From: Gemmatimonadota bacterium
GTDB taxonomy: Bacteria > Gemmatimonadota > Gemmatimonadetes > Longimicrobiales > Gaopeijiaceae
Direction: 5' to 3'
Length of the DNA stretch: 64,000 bases
Assembly: GCA_028873595.1 (NCBI GenBank)
Contig: JAPPOV010000022.1
Location: 1 to 64,000, forward strand
Below, piece by piece: positions 52,426-61,205 of this stretch (position 1 is the first letter of the stretch; the number at the start of each line of letters is the position of its first letter). Under the pieces are notes generated by a model. That model was given only the letters and a program-made list of their open reading frames with translations, searched no databases and was not told the origin of the DNA. Made by a program: the position numbers and the translations under genes.

Positions 52426-52499
52426 GCCGGAGTAGCTCAGTTGGTTAGAGCAGCGGAATCATAATCCGCGTGTCGGGGGTTCAAGTCCCTCCTCCGGCA
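52426..52499 (+). tRNA. tRNA with anticodon CAU (elongator Met likely)
   Basis: A full cloverleaf can be drawn: acceptor GCCGGAG with CTCCGGC (52426-52432 and 52492-52498), D arm GCTC/GAGC, anticodon stem GCGGA/TCCGC around the loop ATCATAA, and T arm GGGGG-TTCAAGT-CCCTC. The discriminator is A52499. CCA is not encoded. The anticodon CAU fits elongator tRNA-Met. The same anticodon, once modified by TilS (gene at 62569), is read as Ile2, and identity elements are not decisive by eye. The initiator is unlikely, since the anticodon stem lacks three G-C pairs. Confidence 0.95.
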
Positions 52500-52512
52500 C
52501 TGAGCAAAGACC

Positions 52513-52550
52513 AGGCGGCTCAAGGGTTTTCTCCTTGGGTCGCCTTTCTT
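52513..52550 (+). terminator. Terminator-like hairpin after the tRNA
   Basis: Arms 52513-52525 and 52533-52545 can form 13 pairs (two or three of them G-U) around the seven-base loop GTTTTCT, followed by TTCTT. It lies 14 bases after the tRNA and would end its transcript. Confidence 0.6.
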
Positions 52551-52658
52551 GTGCCTGGTGGTTGGGTGCCGACTGTCCAGCGAATTGTCCGCTTCGCGTC
52601 GAGAATCCGGTGTGGACAGGGCCGGCGGAATGGCGGTGACGCCGGAAAAGAGGGGACT

Positions 52659-52701
52659 CGGGTAGCGACGGGGCCCCAAAGTACGAGGTGTGCGCTACCC
52701 G
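52659..52701 (-). terminator. Inverted repeat downstream of the sulfotransferase operon
   Basis: CGGGTAGCG (52659-52667) and CGCTACCCG (52693-52701) form a perfect nine-base inverted repeat around a 25-base loop. It lies about 30 bases after the last gene of the minus-strand operon. Read on that strand it is followed by a pyrimidine-rich stretch (TCCCCTCTTTT), compatible with a terminator. The long loop weakens the case. Confidence 0.4.
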
Positions 52702-52729
52702 CACCTTACAGGCGCCGACGGGTCGTCTG

Positions 52730-53815
52730 TTAGGTGGAGCCACCTTCTTCGCCTCTCAGAGAGGTCGCCGTAAGACTTGTCTGACAGTGCCGTTTTGAAT
52801 CCTCGTCTACACCTCTGACGAGCGCTCCAGTGTTATCGGATCCCATTTCCAGCTCTCCTCGATACGTCCGGTACCACTTAGCGAATTCTCGGATGCCCTC
52901 TTCCAGGGTTACCTGTGCCTTGTAACCTATTAGCCGCTCGAGCTCGGACGTATCCGCGTAGGTGGTGTAAACGTCTCCAGGCTGCATGCCCACCATCTCC
53001 TTCCTAGCACTGACCCCGAATTCTTCTTCTAGGACGGAAATTAAGTCGAGCAGACTTACAGGCTCTCCGCGCCCAATGTTGTACACCACGTGGAAGGAAC
53101 CGTCGCTGCGCCGCGTCTCGATGAGGCGGACGGTCGACTCGACAATGTCGTCGATGTAAGTGAAATCGCGGCTCAGCTTGCCTTCGTTGAAGACCTTGAT
53201 GGGTTCACCCCTCGTCATCTGGTCGGTGAAGCTGAAGTAGGCCATGTCGGGGCGTCCCCACGGTCCGTAGACCGTGAAGAAGCGCAGGCCGGTGGCCCTG
53301 AAGCCGTAAAGATGCGAATAAGCGTGGGCCATCAGCTCGTTGGACCGCTTGGTGGCCGCATAGAGCGAGACAGGACTCTCTGCCGGCTCGGAGGTCTGAA
53401 ATGGCACCGCTGAATCGACTCCGTACACCGAGCTCGACGACGCGTAGACTAGGTGCTCCACGCCCGTGTGCCGGCAGGCCTCCAGGACCGACAGAAAGCC
53501 GATCACGTTGCTTCGGGTGTAGGCGAACGGATTGTCGATCGAGTGGCGGACGCCGGGCTGCGCAGCCAGGTTGACGACAAGATCGAAGGGCTTCTCCCTG
53601 AACAACTGGAGCACGCCCTCCTGCTCCGTCAGGTCCATGCGGACGAACCGGAACGCCGTATGCGTCCCAATCGCCTCGACACGAGCGCGCTTAAGTGCGG
53701 GGTTGTAGTAGTCGTTGAGATTATCAAGCGCCGTGACCTCATGCCCATCCCGGAGCAGACGCCGGACCAGGTGAAACCCAATAAATCCTGCCCCGCCCGT
53801 CACCAGAACTCTCAT
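52730..53815 (-). CDS. NAD-dependent sugar epimerase, UDP-glucuronate 4-epimerase-like
   Basis: Short-chain dehydrogenase-type sugar-nucleotide enzyme of 361 residues. It has NAD motif GGAGFIG (7-13), YxxxK at Y152/K156 (SLYAATKRSN), ALDNLNDYYNPALK, and TVYGPWGRPDMAYFSFT with RDFTYIDDIVES. The last two blocks are typical of UDP-glucuronate 4-epimerases (CapI/LpsL type), which make UDP-galacturonate. ATG 53815 follows GGGAG. About 30 unconserved residues extend the C-terminus. It is the last gene of the four-gene operon and would supply an acidic sugar donor. Confidence 0.88.
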   Translation of the reverse strand: MRVLVTGGAGFIGFHLVRRLLRDGHEVTALDNLNDYYNPALKRARVEAIGTHTAFRFVRMDLTEQEGVLQLFREKPFDLVVNLAAQPGVRHSIDNPFAYTRSNVIGFLSVLEACRHTGVEHLVYASSSSVYGVDSAVPFQTSEPAESPVSLYAATKRSNELMAHAYSHLYGFRATGLRFFTVYGPWGRPDMAYFSFTDQMTRGEPIKVFNEGKLSRDFTYIDDIVESTVRLIETRRSDGSFHVVYNIGRGEPVSLLDLISVLEEEFGVSARKEMVGMQPGDVYTTYADTSELERLIGYKAQVTLEEGIREFAKWYRTYRGELEMGSDNTGALVRGVDEDSKRHCQTSLTATSLRGEEGGST

Positions 53816-53828
53816 CACACTCCCTTGC

Positions 53829-55664
53829 CTATTCCTTGTTGTACGGTGCCGCCTGGAGGCTGAACAGATCCCGGTAGATCCCCTGCTTCTCCATCAGGTC
53901 GCCGTGCGCGCCGAATTCCACAATCCTGCCATCCTGCATCACCACAACGGCGTCTGCATTGCGAATGTTCGCCAGCCGGTGGCTGATCAGCACTAGGGTT
54001 CGATCGTGATCATTGAATGTGAACGAATCGAACAACTCCGCCTCGGCGACCGCGTCCAGCGCCGAGGTCGGCTCGTCTAGAATCAAGATGTTCGCATCCT
54101 CCCTGAGAAGAGCCCGGGCTAGCGCCAGACGTTGCCACTGGCCGCCGGAAAGCTCCTGGCCATCCAGAAATCTTCGGGTCAGGCGGGTACCTAGGCCGCC
54201 CGGTAGGGAATCGACAAGGGCCCGTGCCAAACCTCGATCGGCCGCCGCCAGAAGAAGCTCCTCATCGGTGATCCGCAGGCCTGAGCCGAAGGAGATGTTG
54301 TCCGCTACGGTCGACTTGTATCTCACGAACGGCTGGAACAGGACCCCCATCCTGGACCGGAGTGCCTCGCGATCCCACTCCTCAAGATCGAGGCCATCGA
54401 GGAGGACGCGCCCGGCATCCGGCCGGTACAGGCCAGTCATCAGCTTGACCATTGTCGTCTTGCCCGAACCGTTCACTCCGATCAGTCCCAGGTGGTATCC
54501 CGGAGGAAGATGGAGAGACACGCCGTCGACGGCTGGCCGCAACGACCCAGGGTAGGTGTAGCTGACGTTTTCCAGCCGGAGACCGTCGTCGGGGTGCGGC
54601 CCCTCGCGTGCGTTCCCCCCTCTGGAGATCTCGGGAAGATCCAAATAAGCGTACAAGTTCGATGCGTACAGTAGATCATTGTACATGCCACCGACCGAGG
54701 CCAGGAGAGACGTCACTGCAGCCTGGCCTTGTTTGACAAGCGTTATGAACATCGTCATCTGGCCAAGCGTGATCACCCCCGCGATCGTCTCCCACACAAT
54801 CCAGATCTTGGTGGCGAAGAATACGCCGGAGCTCGCGACGCTGAGTGATGCCCCGGCCGCAGCCCCTCGTCGTTGCAGGCTTCGATCCTGGCGGTAGACT
54901 CGTGAGAACAGCGTTTCATACAGCTCCATGATTGCTGGACCGCTGTCGAAATGAATCCGCTCGGGTGCACCTGAATCGCTGGTCATCAAGCTTTCCAGGT
55001 ACGATCGCTCCCTGAGCTCCGGAGTCTTACCGGTGTAGAACCGGAACATCACCCCGGAATATCGAAGCTCGCCGAAGAACAGCGGCAGGCCGCCGATCAG
55101 GACGACGACCACTGCCCACGGCGAAAACGTGACCAGAAGTGCCGCGAACGACAGCAGCGTTACAGAGTACTGCGAGACCTCGAAGATTCGGTTGACGAGC
55201 GCGAAGGGTTTCGAGGTCGCCCGCTGCTTCGCCAGGAGCACCATCTCCTGGATTCTGGGGGTCTCGATCTGCTGCAGCTCCAGCTTCAGAGCTTTGCTGT
55301 GGATGAGCTGACTGACCGAGAAGCCGAGCTCGGCGTGCAGCAGCCGCTTCTGAAACTGAAGCATTCTCCGAGAAACGATGAGAGCCCCAAAAATGATGGC
55401 CTCCAGCAGGACCCAGAGGAGCGCCTGGTCACGATCTGGCTCAAGGCCTGAGGCGATGGCTGCCAGAACCCCATCGACAATCAACTTGCCCACCCAAGCC
55501 GCGGCCGTCGGAAGTAAAGCTACGGCAAGCGTCAGGCTGGCTATGACCAGCGTCAGGCTACGGCTGCTGCTCCAGACCAGGCCGAACGCTCGACGACCGT
55601 ACCCAACGACCTCCCGGAGGGAGGGGGTCGCGCCTTCAGCTCCGGGCTGTGCCCGTTCTTCCAT
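53829..55664 (-). CDS. ABC exporter, fused membrane and ATPase domains
   Basis: Homodimer-type exporter of 611 residues. The membrane domain (about 30-330) carries some five to six hydrophobic segments. The ATPase domain has Walker A GVNGSGKTT (396-404), Q-loop LFQPFVRYKSTVADNI, signature LSGGQWQRLALARAL, Walker B ILILDEPTSALD and H-loop VLISHRLANI. The FVRY-type Q-loop region resembles exporters of peptides and other natural products as well as lipid flippases. It overlaps the fusion gene upstream by 29 bases and lies 13 bases before the epimerase gene. Its likely job is moving the sulfated product or its lipid-linked precursor across the inner membrane. Confidence 0.92.
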   Translation of the reverse strand: MEERAQPGAEGATPSLREVVGYGRRAFGLVWSSSRSLTLVIASLTLAVALLPTAAAWVGKLIVDGVLAAIASGLEPDRDQALLWVLLEAIIFGALIVSRRMLQFQKRLLHAELGFSVSQLIHSKALKLELQQIETPRIQEMVLLAKQRATSKPFALVNRIFEVSQYSVTLLSFAALLVTFSPWAVVVVLIGGLPLFFGELRYSGVMFRFYTGKTPELRERSYLESLMTSDSGAPERIHFDSGPAIMELYETLFSRVYRQDRSLQRRGAAAGASLSVASSGVFFATKIWIVWETIAGVITLGQMTMFITLVKQGQAAVTSLLASVGGMYNDLLYASNLYAYLDLPEISRGGNAREGPHPDDGLRLENVSYTYPGSLRPAVDGVSLHLPPGYHLGLIGVNGSGKTTMVKLMTGLYRPDAGRVLLDGLDLEEWDREALRSRMGVLFQPFVRYKSTVADNISFGSGLRITDEELLLAAADRGLARALVDSLPGGLGTRLTRRFLDGQELSGGQWQRLALARALLREDANILILDEPTSALDAVAEAELFDSFTFNDHDRTLVLISHRLANIRNADAVVVMQDGRIVEFGAHGDLMEKQGIYRDLFSLQAAPYNKE

Positions 55665-57129
55665 CGGTCGAGGCGATCGCGTCGCCCTGCGAAGAGGGGG
55701 GCGACTCGGGTACCATCTTGGTTGCTGCGGCCATCCGTTTGGACAGCATGTTGCCCTTGTGCGGGAAGGGCTCTCGAGGTGTCGGGCGACCGAGGAAGGG
55801 AGCTAGTTTTTCGAATCCTTCCCCCGCCACGATGTCGATCACGAGCAGATCGTCAGGGCGATCCTTGAAGTACTCTTTGACGTTCCGCACATGCTGCTCA
55901 TAGACGAATCTGAAGCGCTCCGGAACAAAAGCGTACGTACCGTACGTCGCTGCACGAAGCAGGCGGCGCACCTTGAGATGGATCTCCTCCTCAGTGGTTT
56001 CCACGTTCTTGAAAGCGGGGCGATTGAACCAATGGTTTTCACACGACTTAAGCCAAGTATCCGTATCCCTTACGGTCAGGATGAATTTTGATCCCGGGTA
56101 GGCCGCATCGAGCTGGGCGAAGAAAGGCGCGGCTGAGATGTCGGTCAGGCCATCATGATTTTTGAGAATGGAGAGGTCGTACTGACCGTAGGCCAGCTCG
56201 GTGAACGTGTCTTCGTCGATCGGATAATGCACCGCGTCGAAACCGATCATCTGGAGTGCCGCCGTCAAGCTACGGGTTCCCGTGCGGCTCAGGCCGATCC
56301 CGAAGACCTTCGGCTTGGGCGTGGAATACCCGTAATGGACCCGATCTGCGTTGCGCGCCAACCACTCGTTTAGCTCTGCCTCCGTGAATGGGGATTTCTC
56401 CTGAATACCGAGGCGGCCCATCTCGGATTTCGACCGCTCCGGGAGCGTCTCGATGAACGCGTGAACTTCTGCCGGTGAGGCGCTCTTATCCACGTTCCTT
56501 CGCGCGTACTGGATGGCCTCTCGGGCGATCAAGTAGTCGTTCGCTTCTATTTCGTTGCCAGGCCAGTCGTCCATCGCCATTTCCAATCGCTTCAGCTGTT
56601 TGCCGGAGCGACTTCGAAGCTCACGGAGCGCGTATTTGACGAAGATGTGCCGGTAGTACTGAAAGTGGTCGTGAAGCACGTCAAAGTTGCGGAACCGCTT
56701 TCCCATGCGCATGGGCTTCATGGCCAGGTTCCGGAGCCTGGACTCCGGCCTCAGCACGTACTTCATGTCGTCCTCGGGCACCTCGACGGACGCCATCGCT
56801 CGCACCAGGTCGATACGGGTGATGTGGAGTCCGCAATGCACTCGGCCGCGAAAGCGATCCGACACGAATGAGTCGATGTAGACAGCCGTGCACTGGTCCA
56901 GAAATGGACGCAGGTCCTCCAGAATGAGGCAATCAGCATCCAGGTAGACGACGTAGTCGCATTGGTGGTCGATCCTGAGCATCTGGTTGACACATTCCGT
57001 GAACGGTCTCACATCGTCGATGACATGCACGTTCTCCGGTTGGATGTGCCGCTTCGCCAGCTTGAGCGACAACTCGCGCGTTCGCTCGTCCACCTGCCTG
57101 AATACTAGGTCGATCTTCGCCACGGTCAT
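55636..57129 (-). CDS. Glycosyltransferase-like / sulfotransferase fusion protein
   Basis: A 497-residue two-part protein. Residues 1 to about 210 resemble a GT-A glycosyltransferase: YVVYLDADCLILEDL gives a DxD motif at D64-D66, followed by FVSDRFRGRVHCGLHI. Residues about 275-460 are a sulfotransferase: VFGIGLSRTGTRSLTAALQ (279-288) is the PAPS 5'-phosphate loop, and KFILTVRDTDTWLKSC matches the 3'-phosphate strand with Arg and Ser/Thr region. A charged 60-residue linker joins them. No signal peptide or membrane segment is seen. It could add a sugar and sulfate to the same acceptor. The sulfotransferase half is secure, but the N-terminal half is inferred from the DxD context. Confidence 0.75.
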   Translation of the reverse strand: MTVAKIDLVFRQVDERTRELSLKLAKRHIQPENVHVIDDVRPFTECVNQMLRIDHQCDYVVYLDADCLILEDLRPFLDQCTAVYIDSFVSDRFRGRVHCGLHITRIDLVRAMASVEVPEDDMKYVLRPESRLRNLAMKPMRMGKRFRNFDVLHDHFQYYRHIFVKYALRELRSRSGKQLKRLEMAMDDWPGNEIEANDYLIAREAIQYARRNVDKSASPAEVHAFIETLPERSKSEMGRLGIQEKSPFTEAELNEWLARNADRVHYGYSTPKPKVFGIGLSRTGTRSLTAALQMIGFDAVHYPIDEDTFTELAYGQYDLSILKNHDGLTDISAAPFFAQLDAAYPGSKFILTVRDTDTWLKSCENHWFNRPAFKNVETTEEEIHLKVRRLLRAATYGTYAFVPERFRFVYEQHVRNVKEYFKDRPDDLLVIDIVAGEGFEKLAPFLGRPTPREPFPHKGNMLSKRMAAATKMVPESPPSSQGDAIASTDGRTGTARS

Positions 57130-58007
57130 TCAGCCCATCTGATGGATCGATTGGCAAGGCCAGCAACTCTCTCGAACAGCTCCTGATGCTTCGGATTCAT
57201 CTCGGCTTTCCAACGCAGGTCTAGCTGGATTCCACTCCCGTGCTCTTCGTAGTAGCTACGACTTCGCTCCCCAACTGAGACGAATGCCTGCCCCGAACTC
57301 GCGATCATGGAGCGAGCGGCCAGGTACTGGGTGCCGTTGTTGCCCCCGAGAGGATGATGCGGGTGTCGATCGAATTTCAGCATATCGACCGAGAATTCCA
57401 GGTCGAGCAGCGTGCAAATTCGACGGAGGCTGGCTTTCGGATTCGTAGCGAATTCCTCATACCGAAGCCGCAGTTTGGGACCCTGATGTTCCGCATAAAG
57501 CCTTCTCGAACGATCGATCTGCTCCATCCAGTCGCGGATCTGCTTCTCCGGGTCGCGGTCCGGGTATTTTCGGATACGCGAGTTGATCACGGCACGTCCG
57601 TCTCGCACCAGAAACAAAAGTGTTGATCGCGCCCGGGAATCCGATGCTTGCAACTCCTTGGTCCGAGCGCGAATCCACTCCGGATCCTTTGTCGAGTCGA
57701 CGATGAGCTGCCGACCGACATGGCGGGCGACTTGGGGATACAGCGGTTCGTCGCGGTTCCACTCGAACGTGGACCACACCGGACAACCCTCACCGCAGAT
57801 CTTGCAAACACGCTTGCGCAGTATCTTGCGTTCGTCGTGCAGGTACCTAGCCTTCGCTCCCTCGCCCATATAGAACACGTCGGCGTGCCCATCTAGGACG
57901 AGGCCGAGTAGCGTGGAGCCCGAATGCCCGGCCCCACATATAGACACAGAATGAGTCGGGGCAAGCTTAGACAAGAATGGGCGCGAGCGGTGCTGATTTG
58001 GAAACAT
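57126..58007 (-). CDS. PAPS-dependent sulfotransferase
   Basis: A 293-residue sulfotransferase, first gene of the operon. The 5'-phosphosulfate loop is SICGAGHSGSTLLGLVLDG (25-34 core) and the 3'-phosphate motif is LLFLVRDGRAVINSRIRK (R135, S143). A cysteine cluster between them (VCKICGEGCPVW: C68, C71, C75) may bind a metal and is typical of a subgroup of bacterial sulfotransferases. The stop overlaps the fusion gene in ATGA on the minus strand. PAPS-synthesis genes are not in the window. The acceptor is probably a carbohydrate or glycolipid, by inference from the neighbours. Confidence 0.87.
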   Translation of the reverse strand: MFPNQHRSRPFLSKLAPTHSVSICGAGHSGSTLLGLVLDGHADVFYMGEGAKARYLHDERKILRKRVCKICGEGCPVWSTFEWNRDEPLYPQVARHVGRQLIVDSTKDPEWIRARTKELQASDSRARSTLLFLVRDGRAVINSRIRKYPDRDPEKQIRDWMEQIDRSRRLYAEHQGPKLRLRYEEFATNPKASLRRICTLLDLEFSVDMLKFDRHPHHPLGGNNGTQYLAARSMIASSGQAFVSVGERSRSYYEEHGSGIQLDLRWKAEMNPKHQELFERVAGLANRSIRWAE

Positions 58008-58537
58008 CGCAGGAACAAGGCATCCAGAGGTTTTCTGAATGAGGAGCGGAAGTTAAGCCAGGCGTTGTCGGTGGACCAGTTTGCGCCGGGCGCGTTCCAC
58101 CAGACGCCACAGGGGGAGTGTTGCTTCGTAGGGCACCTCCATTGTCCTGGCTCCCACGTTCCCAAACCGAGAGCCAACCTGACGCGGCGACTCCCGGGGC
58201 GTTAGGCATCTTTACTAAGGAGACGGGCGCACGTGGTCCCAGCGAATCTGTGCCACGGGAATCAGCCGCGTACTCGACTGGGTCGAGGAGCTGAAGGCGC
58301 GGGTCTCGCCACAGCTCGCTGTCGTAACGAAGCTGGCCGGCTTGACGAACCGGAGTTCGGAAGAACTGGACGGCATCGAAGCCATCGCTGAAGGCTTTTG
58401 GGGCTGCTCTGCTTCGGCTAAATTACGACCCGGCGCCCTCCAGCAGTATCCACAGCTTCTCGGTACGCAGTCCAATCTTCGCTGAATCACTCTTCGAGCC
58501 GCTCGAATTGGACCGGTGACCTCGCCGCCGATTTCGC
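58008..58537. other. 530-base gap without a convincing intact gene
   Basis: This interval lies between the start of the sulfotransferase operon and the end of the TVP38 gene. The first 200 bases must hold the operon promoter on the minus strand, but no clear -35/-10 pair stands out. The remainder contains a start-less coding-like stretch listed separately (58219-58485). No inverted repeats or transposase remnants were recognised. Confidence 0.5.
58219..58485 (+). pseudogene. Coding-like fragment without a start codon
   Basis: A + strand frame open from 58219 (after TAA) to TGA 58483-58485 encodes about 88 residues with protein-like composition. Examples are ISRVLDWVEELKARVSPQL and LAGLTNRSSEELDGIEAIAE. 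There is no ATG, GTG or TTG at its beginning with a ribosome binding site. It may be the remains of a decayed gene. I recognise no family, and chance is possible because high-GC DNA gives long open frames. Confidence 0.3.
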
Positions 58538-59630: not shown

Positions 59631-59743
59631 CTAGCGTTGGCTCTTATCTGACCAACAGATCCTTTTCAAACGAAGGCCTCTGTCCGCAGGAAGTCTCTGA
59701 CGATATGGACAGCCTTGCTGCCCGGGCGGCGGCGAGGAACTGT

Positions 59744-60385
59744 CTAGGGGAGCTTGTTCTCAATCCGCATCAGCGTGTCGCGGATCTCCCGCAGTAACTC
59801 GTCGCTCCCTTTCAGCGGATCGGCGATTGCTTCGGTTGGTGCGGAGTGGGCGGCGGCCGCCACCGCGTCGCGTTGCCGCAGCACCGTATCCCGAAACTTT
59901 CTCGCATCGACGATGCCGACGAGCGTGATGAGAGCGCCGGCTGAAGAGTGTCCGGCCGTCTCGACCTTTATTGCCTGTAGGTCGAAACAGCGCATTACGG
60001 GTCCCTCGATCAGCGCGAGATCCGTGATCTTGTCCAGAGGGACGGTCTGCTCTTGGCGGACAAAAATGCCGCGGCTGACCTTCAGCGACCGTTCTGTAAG
60101 GACGCAGCTCATGTGCTTCAGGTATCGCTCGGTGAAGTGAGTCCCAACGAGGAACCAAATTGGAAGAAGGAGAATCCCAACGACTGTGGCCGTGCAGATC
60201 AGGGCCCCTGAGAGGAGCCAGTAAGTTCTGACTTTTCGGTTGAACGCGGCTTGCGCCAAGACGGTTTCGTGGGCCAACGGGATCTCCAGAATTGTGAGGA
60301 GCCGAGCGAGATTGCGCCCGACGGTAGTGTGGCACAGCGAGGACCTCAACGGCCACCTCCACCGCTGGGCTTCCTGAACGAGCAT
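59744..60385 (-). CDS. Bacterial PH-domain (bPH2) membrane protein
   Basis: A 213-residue protein. It has a membrane segment pair near residues 55-85 (YWLLSGALICTATVVGILLL), then a bPH2 domain: ERYLKHMSCVLTERSLKVS, GIFVRQEQTVPLDKITDLAL and FDLQAIKVETAGHSS. The C-terminal part is charged and coiled. The first 45 residues are not typical for the family, and the real start may lie closer to AQAAFNRKVRTYW, though no good start codon is there. Related YdbS/YdbT proteins affect envelope and antibiotic tolerance. The role here is unknown. Confidence 0.75.
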   Translation of the reverse strand: MLVQEAQRWRWPLRSSLCHTTVGRNLARLLTILEIPLAHETVLAQAAFNRKVRTYWLLSGALICTATVVGILLLPIWFLVGTHFTERYLKHMSCVLTERSLKVSRGIFVRQEQTVPLDKITDLALIEGPVMRCFDLQAIKVETAGHSSAGALITLVGIVDARKFRDTVLRQRDAVAAAAHSAPTEAIADPLKGSDELLREIRDTLMRIENKLP

Positions 60386-60603
60386 GCCAGCGCCTGATTC
60401 GCACTGGCCGGCCGCGGAAGGGAATCGTCACGACAACACCGTGACCCAGGGGTTCCTGGAGAAGAGGATGAACGTTCTCGCCACGCTCAGCTGGATGCGG
60501 CTATGCGTGTTGTTTGGAACAGGCCCGGGTCCCGGGTTTTCGACACGTCTTTCTGCCGTCATTTCCCGGATCCACAAATGTCATTGGCGCCGCAGCCAGC
60601 ACA

Positions 60604-60999
60604 TCACCTGAAATACTGATGACGGATGTACCCCACACGTGTTCGCTCGAAGTGCTTCAGGGGCACATCCATCTCCTGGAAGACATCGACCACCTCTTGA
60701 GTGATGTTGCCGTAGATCTCGATGGCGAGGCTTTCCGCCAGCTCTGCGTGCCTTTCGACGTAATGCTGCACGGGAGGGTTCATGACGTGCGCCAGCAGCG
60801 CAGAACTGTCCTTGTAGATCTCAGTCCAAGTAAAGACCGAAGGGTCATCAGGGTCTGAATCGAAGTTGTGGAAGAGCATTCCCGGTTCGCTTTCCTCCAC
60901 CGCTTTGTCGACCTCCTCTGCTATCTGCAGATAACGATCTTCGGATCCGGCACGTACACGAACGCGTGCGATCAGGACGAAGGGTTCTTGATCAGACAT
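60604..60999 (-). CDS. Antibiotic biosynthesis monooxygenase (ABM) domain protein
   Basis: A 131-residue protein with a dimeric ferredoxin-like ABM fold. It has FVLIARVRVRAGSEDRYLQI at the start, GMLFHNFDSDPDDPSVFTWTE in the middle (core SVFTWTEIYKD) and NPPVQHYVERHAELAESL at the end. Members degrade quinones or heme or act as small monooxygenases without cofactors. Without a partner gene the substrate is unknown. ATG 60999 follows AGAGGTG. It stands alone, with about 200 bases on each side. Confidence 0.8.
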   Translation of the reverse strand: MSDQEPFVLIARVRVRAGSEDRYLQIAEEVDKAVEESEPGMLFHNFDSDPDDPSVFTWTEIYKDSSALLAHVMNPPVQHYVERHAELAESLAIEIYGNITQEVVDVFQEMDVPLKHFERTRVGYIRHQYFR

Positions 61000-61062
61000 T
61001 CTTCACCTCTGGTATTGTTGGGACAGTCAGGCACTTGGAAGCTCGGTTGAAGCTACGCGATT

Positions 61063-61117
61063 CTGCCTCCTCTGAGGCGATGATGCCGGTCGGAGGCGCG
61101 AATATCGGAGGAGGCAG
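61063..61117. repeat. Inverted repeat in a divergent intergenic region
   Basis: CTGCCTCCTC (61063-61072) and GAGGAGGCAG (61108-61117) are a perfect ten-base inverted repeat with a 35-base spacer. It lies between the divergent ABM gene and the hypothetical gene at 61206, where an operator for either could lie. Chance cannot be excluded in GC-rich DNA. Confidence 0.4.
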
Positions 61118-61205
61118 TATCGACGGGCAGCCCGATTCCCCCTGTCGGCGCCGTTTCGTATCTTGTCGTCCCCGTACGACTGCTTTTTACCGGAATCGAA
61201 CGACC

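Follow-up and report, generated by a model that had tools for sequence, protein, structure and literature searches.

ABC half-transporters of the MsbA and PglK types move lipid-linked substrates, and the rhizobial ABC exporter NodIJ handles the finished lipochitooligosaccharide. Several systems combining sulfation with export have also been described. NodH is a sulfotransferase of the PF13469 family whose substrate is a bacterial glycolipid (PMC11625862). In Vibrio sp. KMM 8419, a sulfated capsular polysaccharide locus includes PAPS synthesis, sulfotransferases, and an ABC transporter (PMC11641403), and in the raxX-raxSTAB layout a sulfotransferase stands beside an ABC exporter (PMC8872720). 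Here we compare these systems with a compact locus from a Gemmatimonadota bacterium, in which two sulfotransferase modules, a glycosyltransferase (GT)-like domain, and an ABC exporter are encoded side by side.

Gene layout and protein families

In the 64,000-nucleotide stretch of DNA that was analyzed (the window, from a 3.2-Mb genome that is 94.6% complete), four tightly packed open reading frames (ORFs) lie on the minus strand at 52730-58007, in the order sulfotransferase (ST), GT-ST fusion, ABC exporter, and epimerase. These genes and their immediate surroundings are as follows:

57126-58007, minus strand: sulfotransferase (ST), PF13469, 293 aa
55636-57129, minus strand: fusion of a likely GT-A-like domain (residues ~1-265) to a Sulfotransfer_4 domain (PF17784; residues ~270-460), 497 aa
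53829-55664, minus strand: ABC half-exporter of the MsbA/ABCB type, with hydrophobic segments and a nucleotide-binding domain, 611 aa
52730-53818, minus strand: UDP-glucuronate-4-epimerase-like SDR enzyme, 362 aa; in the same insertion as the other three genes, outside the trio in relatives
52426-52500, plus strand: tRNA-Met (CAT), the attachment point of the insertion; homology to the empty site of a congener stops at 52502
52503-58491, no strand: inserted segment with the four genes, ~6.0 kb; the site is empty in a congener

A sequence-only reading of this DNA had described four packed minus-strand genes with overlaps of 4 and 29 bases and a gap of 13, and all four reading frames were found: the ST stop lies over the fusion start (4 bases), the fusion and ABC genes share 29 bases, and the gap between ABC and the epimerase is 10 bases with a GTG start or 13 with the ATG three bases on. 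Its family calls were borne out by Pfam for the sulfotransferase (PF13469), the ABC exporter (PF00005), the epimerase-like enzyme (PF01370), and the PF17784 part of the fusion.

ST matched Sulfotransfer_3 above the cut-off (E = 1e-11) and carries a PAPS 5' loop (CGAGHSGSTLL), a 3' motif (LVRDGRAV), and a conserved CxxC...C. Its structure model has a pLDDT of 80 and is similar to the CurM sulfotransferase and to tyrosylprotein sulfotransferases. Because the first ~12 residues of ST are not conserved, its true start may lie downstream of the annotated one. In the fusion, residues 274-458 matched Sulfotransfer_4 above the cut-off (E = 6e-36), and the best solved relatives of this domain are Cpz8 and SgdX2; the solved relatives belong to small-molecule pathways. 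In alignments of 13 to 14 sequences, the PAPS-binding motifs are invariant in both modules, and both are assigned as PAPS-dependent sulfotransferases by family profile and phosphate-binding motifs.

The remainder of the fusion had been called glycosyltransferase-like in the sequence-only reading. Residues 1-265 matched no Pfam family, and no significant profile match to this domain, including to any solved glycosyltransferase, was found among structures in the PDB. However, a YxDADC motif (DAD at residues 64-66) is invariant across 13 homologs, and the best non-sulfotransferase Foldseek matches of the moderate-confidence fusion model (mean pLDDT 62) were GT-A or nucleotidyl-sugar folds, for example, B4GalT7, GT8 proteins, ArnC, and KdsB. 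The match to B4GalT7 had a probability of 0.99 but an E value of 0.011 on this model. Given the invariant motif and these fold matches, we consider the N-terminus likely, though not proven, to be GT-A-like.

The ABC protein (ABC_tran) retains Walker A, LSGGQ, Walker B, and H-loop motifs and resembles multidrug and lipid exporters. Its membrane domain gave no match to Pfam ABC_membrane in any of 14 members (the window copy and 13 orthologs), and from sequence we assign it to a divergent exporter subfamily with a membrane domain outside known profiles. Orthology to a transporter of known, unrelated substrate had been named in advance as evidence against the earlier interpretation; none was detected, but ABC reaches no NCBIfam equivalog cut-off (its best match, MsbA_lipidA, scored 247 bits versus a cut-off of 602), so its substrate is not predictable from sequence. 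The earlier statement that the locus has no flippase is unsafe, since an MsbA/PglK-type ABC protein may itself be the flippase. A search for anti-phage defense systems returned only generic ATPase matches, from ABC, and a defense reading was dropped. No polymerase and flippase pair (Wzx/Wzy), KpsMT exporter, or glycosyltransferase series was detected in the 51.3- to 61.7-kb interval of the window, and no capsule-type genes (Wzx/Wzy, Kps, or a glycosyltransferase series) recur in the flanks of relatives' loci, in agreement with the contrast drawn earlier with ordinary capsule loci.

The epimerase aligned end to end with its best solved relatives, 5u4q (E = 6e-118), 6zl6 (E = 3e-57), and MoeE5 (6kv9; E = 2e-43), with SSS and YxxxK kept. 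Every NCBIfam equivalog match of this protein fell under its cut-off.

A co-inherited trio in Maricaulaceae

The order ST, GT-ST fusion, ABC recurs in 27 loci of Maricaulaceae (Alphaproteobacteria), with most gaps in the range of -16 to +28 bp; the family name is applied to these loci by named members and similarity, 13 of the 27 coming from other genomes of that order. ABC directly follows the fusion in every locus, and ST precedes it in 26, the contig of the 27th beginning at the fusion. Full-length fusion orthologs in Maricaulaceae are 63 to 68% identical to the window protein. Patterns derived from the fusion protein were scanned against 84,980 species genomes, an approach whose reach is limited to close relatives, and returned 14 fusion loci in Maricaulis, Hyphobacterium, Euryhalocaulis, and other alphaproteobacteria (64 to 68% identity, nearly full length). 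Across 299 genomes of the Maricaulis order, the distribution was bimodal: 19 encode a full-length fusion at 64 to 68% identity, and the next matches cover only the sulfotransferase domain at no more than 44%. In the phylogenetic profile of 299 genomes, a strong ABC match was likewise present in 19, 18 of them shared with the 19 fusion genomes. The ABC outlier is weak (37%), and in the fusion genome missing from the ABC profile the ABC gene is truncated. Apart from the trio and ORFs overlapping it, no neighbor was present in more than 9 of the 27 loci. Since the same gene order occurs in 27 other loci, the arrangement is not due to chance, and ST, the GT-ST fusion, and ABC are one co-inherited unit. 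Thus, the pairing of two PAPS-type sulfotransferase modules and a GT-like domain with an exporter, proposed from sequence, proved to be inherited as such, and the genes are not merely scattered among relatives.

Apparently damaged copies were also observed in two Maricaulaceae genomes: the fusion and ABC reading frames are split at one locus (L062), and the ABC match stops after ~177 residues at another (L114).

The epimerase does not travel with this unit in relatives. It never adjoins the trio in the 27 Maricaulaceae loci, and all seven trio-bearing genomes searched encode an epimerase homolog (50 to 57% identical) in other loci. This homolog adjoins cysD-cysNC in Hyphobacterium indicum and lies on the same contig as APS kinase, 3 to 40 kb away, in five of the seven. 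A recurring four-gene unit was therefore rejected: in the 27 loci, a search for the original four-gene order found three genes in that order but never the fourth, and the uronate-linked unit of the sequence-only reading does not hold in these relatives. What remains of the link is local to the window. There, the epimerase shares an insertion with the trio, and in a tree it is sister to the Maricaulaceae epimerases (support, 0.89), the same placement as that of the window's sulfotransferase domain from the fusion. The common insertion and matching tree positions make a common source plausible, and the epimerase probably arrived together with the trio. The case for a uronate link is thus made by the window locus and a moderately supported tree.

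Our literature search returned no paper describing sulfated glycans or glycolipids of Maricaulis or a sulfotransferase system in this genus, and none in which a GT-sulfotransferase fusion is paired with an exporter. The trio was not found described in the literature searched; it consists of known families apart from the GT-like domain and the ABC membrane domain.

Insertion beside tRNA-Met

Gene order around the locus in congeners is eno-ftsB-SPFH-tRNA-Met, a variable segment, and then g60966-gdpd-tilS. In the close congener G097, alignment to the window runs up to position 52502, 2 bases past the tRNA-Met 3' end, and resumes at 58492 (90% identity), with ~220 bp in between. For the block 52503-58491, G097 shows a clear empty site. 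G+C content of this block is 0.594, versus 0.634 and 0.644 in the flanks, and no integrase was seen within it. A full-length fusion was absent from the other 120 genomes of the family and from the other 394 sampled from the phylum, where partial matches covered the sulfotransferase domain only or, in one genome (G065), the GT-like domain at 31 to 34% identity. Taken together, the empty site in the congener and the absence of a full-length fusion from these samples argue that a single insertion of ~6 kb brought in all four genes. Contamination of the metagenome-assembled genome or a chimeric contig was ruled out, as both flanks match congeners, one of which has the empty site.

The tRNA-Met site is a hotspot for insertions in the genus: it is empty in G103, near-empty in G097, and filled with other cargo in G100, G101, and G102, that of G101 including a large outer-membrane-like protein, an amidohydrolase, and others. 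Elsewhere in the window, positions 59681-61121 (a bacterial PH-domain protein and a monooxygenase-like ORF of ~130 aa) are absent from G097, which suggests another small insertion or a loss.

The tree of sulfotransferase domains does not place the window copy within the Maricaulaceae clade, and a Gemmatimonadota protein branches next. Given this branching, we do not claim Maricaulaceae as a proven donor. The nearest unfused relative of the fusion's domain (48 to 49%) is a sulfotransferase from another Gemmatimonadota locus (L031; contig C154 of G307), which encodes several sulfotransferase-like genes, two GT2 genes, halogenase-like oxidoreductases, and an AMP-binding enzyme.

Supply of PAPS and UDP-glucuronate

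Within a polysaccharide region of the window's genome (contig C29, ~72.4 to 77.5 kb; L128, 12407-17462), genes for ugd (UDP-glucose 6-dehydrogenase), an SDR, cysD, and fused cysNC are arranged head to tail. The sulfate-activation genes are thus on a contig other than that of the trio. APS kinase was detected in 12 of 13 Maricaulaceae genomes tested. With cysD-cysNC and ugd present, PAPS and UDP-glucuronate are both available in the window's own genome, and the search for PAPS-synthesis genes proposed in the sequence-only reading, which had counted their absence against it, gave a positive answer in both lineages. Judging from the ugd-SDR-cysD-cysNC cluster in its polysaccharide region, the organism may also make its own sulfated or uronate-bearing polysaccharide.

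Proposed function of the trio

On balance, these data favor, by a small margin over even odds, the hypothesis that the trio is mobile, is inherited as a unit, and serves to build a sulfated glycoconjugate and export it. Under this hypothesis, the resident CysD and CysNC enzymes, which are present in the genome, would generate PAPS. The GT-A-like domain would then add a sugar to an acceptor already present at the inner leaflet; this acceptor would probably be a lipid-linked sugar or a glycolipid of the membrane. The Sulfotransfer_4 domain of the fusion and the stand-alone Sulfotransfer_3 enzyme, both of recognizable catalytic families, would place two sulfates on this presumed acceptor, with the fusion coupling glycosylation to sulfation. 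Finally, the ABC half-transporter, by family an MsbA/PglK type and presumably homodimeric, would flip or export the product. In the window, the epimerase could convert UDP-glucuronate from resident Ugd to UDP-galacturonate and so may supply the sugar; in Maricaulaceae this function would sit elsewhere in the genome. We prefer a lipid-linked acceptor because half-transporters of this type move lipid-linked substrates and because NodH, a member of ST's Pfam family, sulfates a glycolipid. In none of the loci is the trio accompanied by a gene for lipid synthesis or for an initiating or other glycosyltransferase. Because no gene for the acceptor travels with the trio, both phyla must possess that acceptor. 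To call the locus a minimal pathway, as was done from sequence, overstated its content, since it encodes no acceptor-making enzyme and an endogenous acceptor must be assumed.

A more specific version of the glycoconjugate hypothesis is offered tentatively, as we judge it to have well under an even chance: Maricaulaceae would have a characteristic, dedicated sulfated glycolipid that is as yet undescribed. A bifunctional GT/sulfotransferase would make it together with the other sulfotransferase, an ABC protein with a membrane domain outside known profiles would flip it, and the trait would pass from phylum to phylum as a cassette of three or four genes, inserted as four genes in the Gemmatimonadota copy. 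If the glycoconjugate hypothesis is right, a short set of known-family genes would explain both a sulfated surface compound in a marine clade and its intact passage to an unrelated phylum. The product should be findable, as cultured Maricaulis and Hyphobacterium strains, M. salignorans and M. parjimensis among them, possess the trio. The fusion would also supply a GT-like family without a Pfam profile, and its sequence could mark sulfated glycoconjugates in metagenomes.

Alternatively, the enzymes could decorate a polymer, sulfating and glycosylating the lipid-linked repeat unit of a resident exopolysaccharide, with ABC flipping the unit as PglK does. The grouping of ugd, SDR, cysD, and cysNC in the large polysaccharide region on C29 is consistent with such a role, as is the proximity of epimerase homologs to APS kinase in Maricaulaceae, one of them adjoining cysD-cysNC. 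However, the trio was never found within those polysaccharide loci, and it passed to another phylum by itself, unaccompanied by genes for a polymerase or repeat unit; we consider polymer decoration unlikely. Less probable still is a sulfated small molecule, a secondary metabolite made and exported with the Sulfotransfer_4 domain acting like Cpz8 or SgdX2. The identity of that domain's best solved relatives and the resemblance of ABC to multidrug and lipid exporters would fit, but no nonribosomal peptide synthetase, polyketide synthase, or terpene core gene recurs beside the trio in the 27 loci, and its retention across the clade in differing neighborhoods looks like that of an envelope or housekeeping trait. 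A raxX-raxSTAB-like system, in which ST would sulfate a peptide secreted by ABC, was rejected as a sulfated RiPP candidate and is very improbable: despite the tyrosylprotein sulfotransferase-like fold of ST and the shared layout, Pfam detected no peptidase domain in ABC, neither a membrane-fusion partner gene nor a companion ORF of at least 60 aa recurs in the 27 loci, no feature in common with the window occurs within 700 bp on either side, and a GT domain would have no role.

Comparison with known systems

We prefer the glycoconjugate hypothesis to these alternatives, and the trio resembles each of the described systems in part. With raxX-raxSTAB it shares a sulfotransferase and an ABC exporter in one operon; however, it has no peptidase domain, membrane-fusion protein, or detected precursor peptide, and it includes a GT-like domain. 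As in the capsule locus of Vibrio sp. KMM 8419, PAPS synthesis, sulfotransferases, and an ABC transporter occur in the same genome, although, unlike sulfated capsule loci, the trio locus is without KpsDMET, a glycosyltransferase series, and polymer genes, and the sulfate-activation genes are on another contig. The ABC protein shares the half-transporter layout and nucleotide-binding domain motifs of the MsbA and PglK flippases but scores far under the MsbA_lipidA equivalog cut-off, with a membrane domain unmatched by Pfam ABC_membrane. In NodH-NodIJ, too, a glycolipid is sulfated by a PF13469 enzyme (PMC11625862), and the completed product has an ABC exporter. The resemblance is at the family level only: the trio lacks NodABC-like synthesis genes, its second sulfotransferase is fused to a GT-like domain, and its exporter is a half-size MsbA-type protein rather than NodIJ. 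Finally, whereas Cpz8 and SgdX2 are single-domain enzymes, here the PF17784 domain is fused to a likely GT-A-like domain and encoded in a three-gene operon with an exporter.
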